34,161 nt of DNA from Prevotella sp. (GTDB lineage Bacteria; Bacteroidota; Bacteroidia; Bacteroidales; Bacteroidaceae): NCBI GenBank assembly GCA_022778905.1, contig JALFRV010000230.1:1-34161 (forward strand), read 5' to 3'. The notes beneath the pieces are model-generated. The model was not told where the DNA came from and did no database searches. It worked only from the letters and a program-made list of their open reading frames with translations. Both the position numbers and the translations under genes were made by a program. Shown piece after piece: positions 4,950 through 29,837 of this stretch (position 1 is its first letter; every line of letters begins with the position of its first letter).

Positions 4950-4955
4950 GCATGC

Positions 4956-5048
4956 CTCGCGCAGAGCTATGCTTTCGGCGCCCGAAAGCTATCATATGGG
5001 CGGCCAAGAGCTATGCTTTCGGGCGCCGAAAGCATAGCTCCGCGCAGA
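4956..5048. repeat. Composite palindromic intergenic element, copy 1
   Basis: CGCGCAGAGCTATGCTTTCGGCGCCCGAAAGCTATCATATGGGCGGCCAAGAGCTATGCTTTCGGGCGCCGAAAGCATAGCTC; includes a perfect 15-bp-arm palindrome (5008-5022/5026-5040). Related copies at ~21494-21630, ~29719-29837 and, diverged, ~18109-18170. Confidence 0.8.
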
Positions 5049-5212
5049 CCAGAGAAATCATCCGTAAAATCCACCCCAAAAACCTCCCGTTCGAGGGAGC
5101 GTCATTTCGTATCTGAACACCCCCTCAATCAGCTTTCCACAACAAAATGCAGAGGCGGATCTTGTGCCTGTCCGCAGGAGCCGAGCCATCCATGCCCACC
5201 CCCCATTCCCTT

Positions 5213-5243
5213 CGTAGGGGCGGATCTGCGTATCCGCCCGCAA
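5213..5243 (+). repeat. GC-rich hairpin repeat CGTAGGGGCGGATCTGCGTATCCGCCCGCAA, copy 1
   Basis: 31-nt unit; exact inverted copy at 5435-5465 and one-mismatch copy at 29457-29487; internal stem GGGCGGAT/ATCCGCCC. Confidence 0.85.
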
Positions 5244-5434
5244 AGAGCGGAATCTATCAACCAACCGTCCGGACGAATGCCATAAACCGCAAATGATGCC
5301 CATTCCGCAGATGGAAATGTTCACAATGATGATCGCATGGGCGAAACCTGACATTGGCGAATGGTAAATTGCGTGTGGGAACTTGGCCCATTGCAGGCGG
5401 GCATTCGGCCCTTGTCTTTATCCCGATGGGCCCA

Positions 5435-16880: not shown

Positions 16881-16992
16881 GAACTTTTCGGACAAACCGG
16901 CGCAATATGATTGAATAATTATTCCATTCTTTCAGCGCGCGAAAAAAGAGCGGGGTGGACAATCGGCCATTCCGCTCTTTTTAACGCGGCAG
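16881..16992 (+). repeat. 112-bp perfect direct repeat, left copy
   Basis: gaacttttcggacaaaccggcgcaatatgattgaataattattcc...ccgctctttttaacgcggcag; 112/112 identical to 17893-18004. Confidence 0.97.
16943..16982 (+). terminator. Terminator hairpin AAAAAGAGCGG...CCGCTCTTTTT (left repeat copy)
   Basis: Perfect 11-bp stem (16943-16953 / 16972-16982) with A-tract/T-tract arms, potentially bidirectional; downstream of the DPP7-like gene. Confidence 0.8.
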
Positions 16993-17097
16993 TCTCTTTA
17001 CCATAAACTATAAAGGTACATCAACAAACTTAATGATGGTGTCCTTTAATTTCTTCATTGACATTCTAAATGCCTATAGTTTATCGTTAAAACTGCC
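16988..17097. repeat. ~25-bp imperfect inverted repeat at the left edge of the AT-rich island
   Basis: GGCAGTCTCTTTACCATAAACTATA (16988-17012) versus TATAGTTTATCGTTAAAACTGCC (17075-17097); core ATAAACTATA/TATAGTTTAT is perfect. Confidence 0.65.
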
Positions 17098-17285
17098 TTT
17101 TGTGTTGAAATTTAGAAAAAATATAGATATATATAACCACATTGAAAAACATTTCTTATATTAGCGACATATTTCTAATAGTTCTAACATATTCATTAAC
17201 CCTTTAAATATATACCATTATGACAATAGCATTTTTTAAGTTTCCGTTTCATTAGTCTTCAAAACAAGACGCAATATATCAGAAA

Positions 17286-17575
17286 ATGAGATCATCTCTA
17301 ACAAAGATCTATTCTTCAAAGAAAAAAGCATTATCCTTCTTGCGTTACCTGTAATTAATTGTAATTATAAATATCCAGCTTCAACACGATCCAATGAAGA
17401 TTGTCTTTCACGATATAAGTCGAGCAGAAGGCGATGTGGAACTGTTTGCGTAGCCTCATGTGCACTTTCATTCACTAGTGGCCCTGTCATTGCCACAGCC
17501 GGTATTGCACTTGCTACCTACGAATTAGATAATTGCTTAAACGACGCATTACAACACTACAAAGAATGTCAATAA
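17286..17575 (+). pseudogene. Cys-rich small secreted peptide gene, in two frames (frameshift at A6 run); bacteriocin-like candidate
   Basis: Frame from ATG 17286 gives MRSSLTKIYSSKKK; a -1 shift (or one extra A) in the A6 run gives SIILLALPVINCNYKYPASTRSNEDCLSRYKSSRRRCGTVCVASCALSFTSGPVIATAGIALATYELDNCLNDALQHYKECQ*. The downstream frame is open from 17240 to the stop at 17573-17575 but contains no ATG/GTG/TTG. Could be a pseudogene, a homopolymer error or recoding. Confidence 0.45.
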
Positions 17576-17584
17576 ACAAGAATT

Positions 17585-17836
17585 ATGAACAGAAAAGAAT
17601 CCATTCCTATCAACAGTTACATCCTCCTGTTTCTCGTCATCACCTTGTTGCAGATAACAAAGGTCATTGAACGAACAGTATATTACAGGCTCTTGGCCAT
17701 TCTTGCAATTCCGTCCATCATCTATTTCACATACGCTGCATGGAAATGGTATAAGAAGACGCACAAAGTGAACTGGAGATTTGCTGTATTAATCATTGCG
17801 AATGCTGTTCTGATTGCAATGCCTTTCATACCCTGA
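17585..17836 (+). CDS. Small (83 aa) hydrophobic membrane protein; candidate immunity-like partner
   Basis: MNRKESIPINSYILLFLVITLLQITKVIERTVYYRLLAILAIPSIIYFTYAAWKWYKKTHKVNWRFAVLIIANAVLIAMPFIP: two or three hydrophobic segments; starts 9 nt after the upstream peptide stop. Confidence 0.65.
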   Translation: MNRKESIPINSYILLFLVITLLQITKVIERTVYYRLLAILAIPSIIYFTYAAWKWYKKTHKVNWRFAVLIIANAVLIAMPFIP

Positions 17837-17892
17837 GCAATAGCAGGCGCAAACCATTTGCAACAGGAATCATGAAAGAGAAATCAAAAGAG

Positions 17893-18004
17893 GAACTTTT
17901 CGGACAAACCGGCGCAATATGATTGAATAATTATTCCATTCTTTCAGCGCGCGAAAAAAGAGCGGGGTGGACAATCGGCCATTCCGCTCTTTTTAACGCG
18001 GCAG
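17893..18004 (+). repeat. 112-bp perfect direct repeat, right copy
   Basis: Identical to 16881-16992, offset 1012 bp; carries a second copy of the terminator hairpin (17955-17994). Confidence 0.97.
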
Positions 18005-18108
18005 ATCGCTCCAAAATCAGCCAAAGTAATAAATTCTGACAAGAAAGCATCCGTACGAAGCATCCTTCAACTGCATTTTCCGACCCGAGAGGATATCTCT
18101 TGAGGATC

Positions 18109-18170
18109 CGGAGCATATATTCGGACGCCCCGGAGTAATCATTTGGAGCGGCAAGAGCATGTTTGCGCAG
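18109..18170. repeat. Diverged copy of the composite palindromic element
   Basis: ccggagcatatattcggacgccccggagtaatcatttggagcggcaagagcatgtttgcgcag aligns by eye with gagctatgctccgggccgcccggagctatcatttgggcggccaaaagcatagctttgg. Confidence 0.45.
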
Positions 18171-18377
18171 CATCCGCCTGCCCCTTTTCGTATAAACATT
18201 CACAATCGGCGGAAAACGGGGAAGAATGCTGTTCTGAAACAAAAGGACAAAATTCGGAAATCCGGCAGGGCCCTTTCCGGACGGAAGCCGTCAGCATCGA
18301 AGCTCGTATCAAGTGGCTCCGCAGGCGACAGCACGGCATTTTATTTGCCCCGCCTCACCACTTCACCCCCCATTTAT

Positions 18378-29298: not shown

Positions 29299-29456
29299 TG
29301 CTCCGCCGCCGCATCCTTCCTTGACATTTGGACGGTGGAAAGAACGAGTGAAAGAGTTGGTGAGCTTTGAGTTGTAAACTCCACAACGAAAGGCAGGGGC
29401 AAGCCTTGTGCCCGCCCGCAAGCACTGAAGCATGAATGCCCACTCCTCATTCCCAA

Positions 29457-29487
29457 CGTAGGGGCGGATCGGCGTATCCGCCCGCAA
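29457..29487 (+). repeat. GC-rich hairpin repeat, copy 3
   Basis: CGTAGGGGCGGATCGGCGTATCCGCCCGCAA; one mismatch (in the loop) to 5213-5243. Confidence 0.85.
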
Positions 29488-29718
29488 GCTGCTGAATCAA
29501 TCAACAAGACGAATGGACGCATGGCATGAACCGCAGATCACGCCGATGACAAGGATGGATAGGATTGAAATGAAGGTTGGAAAGATAAATCATGAGATAA
29601 GCGGATAGCATCTTGCGCGCTGAGGCTTTGCCCATTTCAACGTTCCGTTTTCCCCATCTCAGCGTCACAAAATGCACACCTGCAAACGCCTCCTGTCACC
29701 TCTCCGACAGGCATAAAT

Positions 29719-29837
29719 TTCATCCGTCCGGAGCATACGTATGATATGCCGCGCGCAGAGCTATGCTCCGGGCCGCCCGGAGCTATCATTTGGGCGGCCA
29801 AAAGCATAGCTTTGGACGGCCGAAAGCATAGCTTTGG
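29719..29837 (+). repeat. Composite palindromic intergenic element
   Basis: tccgtccggagcatacgtatgatatgccgcgcgcagagctatgctccgggccgcccggagctatcatttgggcggccaaaagcatagctttggacggccgaaagcatagctttgg. Confidence 0.75.

Follow-up and report, generated by a model that had tools for sequence, protein, structure and literature searches.

A rare two-gene cassette in a Prevotella genome, inserted with a 112-bp duplication and encoding a Cys-rich peptide and a small membrane protein: a candidate toxin and immunity pair

The gene pair and its relative in Hoylesella oralis

The window, by which is meant the whole stretch of DNA that was analysed (34,161 nucleotides of Prevotella sp. contig JALFRV010000230.1), carries between its S46 and GH2 genes an AT-rich insert that differs sharply in composition from the neighbouring genes, which have GC contents of 57.5% and 60.6%. 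The insert is flanked by direct repeats and contains two small co-oriented genes (Table 1). Gene 1 is a single continuous frame of 99 codons that encodes a Cys-rich helical-hairpin protein, and gene 2 encodes a hydrophobic protein of 83 aa. A preliminary description, made from the DNA of the window alone, had drawn attention to an uncalled Cys-rich frame (SIILLALPVINC...KECQ, 17327-17575) with no ATG, GTG or TTG start in that frame, and to the 83-aa hydrophobic ORF that begins 9 nt past its stop. Both observations were verified; the 900-bp insert and the repeats in which the gene pair is set had been overlooked.

Table 1. Features of the inserted segment and its borders (window coordinates).
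Feature	Position	Strand	Remarks
Left copy of the perfect 112-bp direct repeat	16881-16992	.	Present natively, once, in sister genome G184
Imperfect hairpin GGCAGT...ACTGCC over the left junction	16988-17097	+	Fold z = -4.43; no other genomic copy
AT-rich inserted segment, 900 bp, containing both genes	16993-17892	.	34.7% GC; missing from the empty site of G184
Gene 1	17276-17575	+	Earliest possible start ATA (17276-17278), opposite GTG of H. oralis
22-aa out-of-frame ORF MRSSLTKIYSSKKKALSFLRYL	17286-17354	+	N-terminus of the preliminary description; not conserved
A6 run	17322-17327	+	No shift required; homology ungapped across
Gene 2, 83-aa membrane protein, partner of gene 1	17585-17836	+	Three predicted helices; 82-aa counterpart beside homolog
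Short ORF MKEKSKEELFGQTGAI	17872-17922	+	Starts in insert and continues into right repeat; read from sequence
Right copy of the 112-bp direct repeat	17893-18004	.	Terminator-like hairpin 17955-17994

A single strong match to gene 1 was found among 399 genomes of the genus, namely in the mouth bacterium Hoylesella oralis ATCC 33269 (G161, NZ_GL833119.1), with 48% identity and E = 3.8e-17. The matching gene (L035:1486-1866, minus strand) is followed directly, with a 4-nt overlap, by an ORF for an 82-aa hydrophobic membrane protein, such that the H. oralis locus repeats the order seen in the window, peptide gene then membrane gene, within an AT-rich island; the composition of the pair is foreign in both hosts. 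Identity between the two peptides is 41% over 99 ungapped codons and 48% over the core, and Cys residues 43, 54, 62 and 87 (four of the seven positions in the window protein) are common to both, with five Cys in the aligned part of the H. oralis protein as opposed to seven in the window. Direct BLASTP between gene 2 and the 82-aa ORF gave a weak match; the likeness of the two sequences exceeds that of shuffled controls (p 0.0005-0.001), and their hydropathy profiles are similar. The flanking genes are different at the two loci, and the H. oralis locus (L035/L042/L043) has no long direct repeat, unlike the window. No relative of the gene neighbouring the H. oralis pair was found among 33 genomes. 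These comparisons show both genes to be genuine and to form a pair, and the original suggestion that the peptide gene and the small membrane ORF form a conserved two-gene unit is borne out by their adjoining in a second species.

Two smaller features were seen beside the genes. Upstream of the H. oralis peptide gene (L035:1867-2160, minus strand) short ORFs MKTNKLSSENYTDIRDIILI and MMYKRIVDNYQSILSKEHTNCGVYHNLSLDLLKYL lie between a promoter-like box, TATATTTG, and the gene, constituting a long leader. In the window, an exact 14-nt direct repeat, GAATGCTGTTCTGA, is found within gene 2 (17800-17813) and again in host DNA downstream of the insertion (18224-18237), probably by chance.

The pair was seen in only two of more than 1,000 genomes searched at the levels of genus, family, order and phylum, and searches of viral contigs, plasmids, phages and GTDB representative contigs revealed no copy beyond that of H. 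oralis. Weak matches were obtained at each level, including close relatives, but those inspected were unrelated readings of other DNA, many of them broken by stops, and were rejected. Since the contig scans employed short patterns, to which distant relatives are invisible, and the larger groups were covered in the genome searches by a sample, the family may extend beyond these two copies.

Reading frame and start codon of gene 1

The preliminary description had initiated the peptide at ATG 17286 and invoked either a -1 shift or the loss of one A within the A6 run to reach the Cys-rich frame, the joined product being a putative Sec-secreted peptide. Despite the ATG standing upstream of the A6 run in the right relation for such a join, and the product being signal-like, the frame conserved in H. 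oralis is the unshifted one, with no gap through A6. Indeed, this frame is already open upstream of the run, being free of stops between 17240 and the terminating codon at 17573 (111 codons from stop to stop) with no shift required. The gene 1 segment before A6 (ISENEIISNKDLFFKEK in the window, VSYDDIIGYSELAFNEK in H. oralis) resembles its homolog with shuffle p = 0.0065 when taken alone and 0.0015 together with the following stretch, whereas the N-terminus supplied by the shifted frame, MRSSLTKIYSSKKK, has no counterpart in the homolog (p = 0.998), and no homolog with an intact N-terminus like MRSSLTKIYSSKKKSIILL was found. On the basis of the ungapped 99-codon alignment, the shuffle tests and the coding pattern on both sides of A6, the frameshift was rejected, and the reading as a shifted, Sec-secreted product is considered extremely improbable. 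The Sec signal peptide was lost with it: the homologous N-terminus, VSYDDIIGYSELAFNEKPALIMGKTVKEVEEKY, has no basic n-region and no extended hydrophobic core, and nowhere in the H. oralis protein does a 17-residue window exceed the hydropathy threshold used. The case illustrates how a tempting frameshift repair can mislead when homologs go unconsulted.

Differences between gene 1 and its H. oralis homolog at the first, second and third codon positions were 0.49/0.30/0.66 overall, 0.47/0.18/0.76 upstream of A6 and 0.45/0.32/0.62 in the core, with pS of 0.75 and pN of 0.41. A protein-coding pattern is present in both parts of the gene, and the codon-position differences, together with pS and pN, point to purifying selection. 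Runs of at least 111 codons without a stop arose in 86 of 2,000 shuffles of the 900-bp AT-rich insert; since such runs are only mildly unusual in AT-rich DNA, the length of the ORF is by itself weak proof, and it is the homolog and the codon pattern that identify gene 1 as a coding frame.

Of the start codons of table 11, the earliest to occur in the frame is the ATA listed in Table 1; in H. oralis the open N-terminus extends further, and both an ATG and a GTG are available as possible starts. Conservation of the DNA upstream of the ATA and GTG between the two loci is borderline only (p 0.02-0.12). Initiation at AUA is documented for infC and ccpN of Staphylococcus aureus but is weak, yielding approximately 10-30% of the output of AUG in S. 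aureus reporters (PMC13009471). The start of gene 1 in the window would appear to be either atypical and throttled, or lost. It is rather unlikely, but worth considering, that the cassette is a decaying passenger, i.e. a recent arrival whose gene 1 start was lost in this lineage and which yields no product, the H. oralis copy being functional. The missing conventional start, the ATA where H. oralis has GTG, and the truncated ORF at the right junction of the insert would all be expected of such decay; however, the 99-codon frame is otherwise intact and retains a coding pattern, and initiation at AUA occurs at the efficiencies cited above. In either event the gene is of a kind that gene callers overlook, being short and with an atypical start.

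The insertion site

The region is 97-99% identical in a sister genome (G184), in which the corresponding site is empty: one contig there joins the native left and right flanks with one copy of the 112-bp repeat between them. In the window the two copies of the repeat are 100% identical, and the left copy includes a terminator-like hairpin (16943-16982) that follows the S46 peptidase gene. The differences from the G184 repeat are common to both window copies, and the duplication therefore looks recent. Taken with the distribution described above, the pair constitutes a rare, horizontally acquired two-gene cassette whose insertion, accompanied by the 112-bp duplication, was precise, and the empty and filled sites together provide a clean case of the movement of a tiny cassette. 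No transposase or integrase is encoded inside the insert, and no further copy of the 112-bp repeat occurs anywhere in the genome. A repeat-borne mobile element was considered and rejected, as neither the repeat nor the hairpin at the left end has other copies in the genome. Insertion with so long a duplication could have proceeded by template switching or by homology-aided illegitimate recombination.

Assembly of a fragmented draft in the presence of strain variation is very unlikely to have produced the repeat artefactually or to have placed the cassette wrongly between the S46 and GH2 genes. The window genome is indeed a draft of 318 contigs at 87% completeness, the repeat copies are identical and contigs of the sister assembly end within this repeat; nevertheless, both junctions lie within one contig with the insert abutting the repeat on either side, the empty site of G184 is consistent with plain insertion, and H. 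oralis proves the gene pair itself. The break in the sister assembly lies between the end of contig C200 and the start of contig C27 (L078, L077), which overlap by exactly 87 nt within the repeat, and it adjoins an A5/A6 difference from the window. These contig ends and the A5/A6 difference suggest strain variation at the insertion site.

Several minor elements were noted at and around the insert. Inverted repeat arms TTTACCATAAACTATA and TATAGTTTATCGTTAA at 16997-17090 are separated by 62 nt, and a minus-strand sequence between the arms, TAAGTTTG (17025-17032), fits the -7 box of Bacteroidetes, TAnnTTTG. It is conceivable, if weakly supported, that 16997-17090 holds an invertible promoter. 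An Rfam search returned no credible RNA. At the right-hand end, the MKEKSKEELFGQTGAI ORF may be a third gene that the junction truncates. Elsewhere in the window, intergenic repeats at 4952-5395 and 29380-29833 match over 260 nt at 70% and 88 nt at 63-80%; they are rich in palindromes such as GCTATGCTTTCGGGCGCCGAAAGCATAGCT, with a similar-looking stretch near 18108-18160, and look like interspersed REP/BIME-type elements of the host.

Predicted structure and candidate functions

An AlphaFold model of the gene 1 protein, built on two sequences and of moderate confidence (pLDDT 68.6), comprises a hairpin of two helices (residues 42-68 and 70-98, with pLDDT blocks of 72-87) preceded by a poorly ordered N-terminus. 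The hairpin has a Gly/Ala-rich turn with the motif CALSxTxGPxxAxAGIxLATYELDxCL. In the window protein the Cys residues form twin CX10C pairs (43/54 and 87/98), the last Cys being missing in H. oralis, and on this model the pairs would fit two disulfide rungs within the hairpin. The proteins of the gene pair matched no Pfam, NCBIfam or PHROG family (Pfam and NCBIfam being searched up to E = 10), and no PDB sequence or fold; in PADLOC three of the four proteins were without a match, the remaining one giving a weak 2TM echo (E = 0.23). Halocin C8, an archaeal peptide to which gene 1 had at first been likened, also combines Cys residues with a Gly/Ala-rich hydrophobic segment. The resemblance to gene 1 is a general one, and no Pfam or NCBIfam model matched up to E = 10, although these libraries may lack a halocin model.

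Two groups of antibacterial proteins from Bacteroidetes were compared with the pair. Bacteroidetocins (class IIf) are likewise small Cys-containing Bacteroidetes peptides, in which a leader of 15-16 aa is cut after GG to release a 42-aa mature peptide; their four-gene region encodes a thiol oxidoreductase together with an ABC transporter that bears a double-glycine peptidase domain, and an immunity gene was not found (PMC6671954). The GG leader, the peptidase-bearing ABC transporter, the thiol oxidoreductase and the four-gene region are all absent from the ORF lists of both loci studied here. In BcpT/BcpI, an antibacterial protein of Bacteroidales is encoded on mobile DNA immediately upstream of a tiny immunity gene, a layout that recalls the pair. 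BcpT, however, is a lipoprotein of 499 aa that is activated by proteases, and BcpI is a 57-aa lipoprotein (PMC9308784), as opposed to the three-helix membrane protein encoded by gene 2.

The grounds on which a bacteriocin was originally proposed fail, since the signal peptide lay in an unconserved frame, neither an exporter nor a thiol oxidoreductase accompanies the genes and the halocin likeness is unsupported. A bacteriocin and immunity pair can nonetheless be argued for on other evidence, and is put forward here tentatively as the likeliest reading: gene 1 would encode a peptide toxin of approximately 99 aa acting against related bacteria, and gene 2, presumably on the same transcript, a membrane-embedded immunity protein of approximately 83 aa with three helices, both carried on a horizontally acquired cassette. 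Patchy, portable and self-contained pairs of a peptide and a small membrane protein are the usual layout of bacteriocins and their immunity proteins. In keeping with this, the genes are adjacent in two species with unrelated flanks, gene 1 is under purifying selection, the two second genes resemble each other, their distribution is patchy, their composition foreign and the insertion precise, and the peptide has four conserved Cys residues and a predicted helical hairpin. Against it count the lack of a family or fold match, the conservation of four of the seven Cys residues and the ATA start in the window genome, from which the output of gene 1 would be low or nil. Antibacterial action, immunity and export, like co-transcription, are suppositions. 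It also counts against this reading that no export signal is common to the two gene 1 proteins, that of H. oralis having no signal-peptide-like core and a GG leader not being seen, and that in the local ORF lists neither copy is accompanied by a transporter or a thiol oxidoreductase, although a transporter might be encoded at a distance from the pair.

A toxin-antitoxin or small phage-defence module, in which gene 2 would be the damaging effector and gene 1 would restrain it inside the cell, is a doubtful alternative. Two tiny, co-oriented, patchy and mobile genes would be in character for such a module, as would a soluble gene that precedes a membrane gene and, in H. oralis, is without an export signal. 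Conversely, PADLOC offered only the 2TM echo and Pfam and NCBIfam nothing, and a weak or lost start of gene 1 in the window would be costly were its product the antitoxin. Decay of the cassette in the window, as considered above, would be compatible with either function in H. oralis.

Should the bacteriocin and immunity reading hold, the pair would add a very small, self-contained peptide and immunity family to the few known in Bacteroidales. A more specific and improbable version would have it as an undescribed Bacteroidales family of antibacterial, or self-toxic, peptides, defined by a helical hairpin with twin CX10C pairs (C43/C54, C87/C98) and accompanied by a membrane protein of three helices. 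The cassette would travel as its two genes alone, would duplicate 112 bp of target on insertion and would need no dedicated exporter, the AUA start throttling the peptide in the present host.
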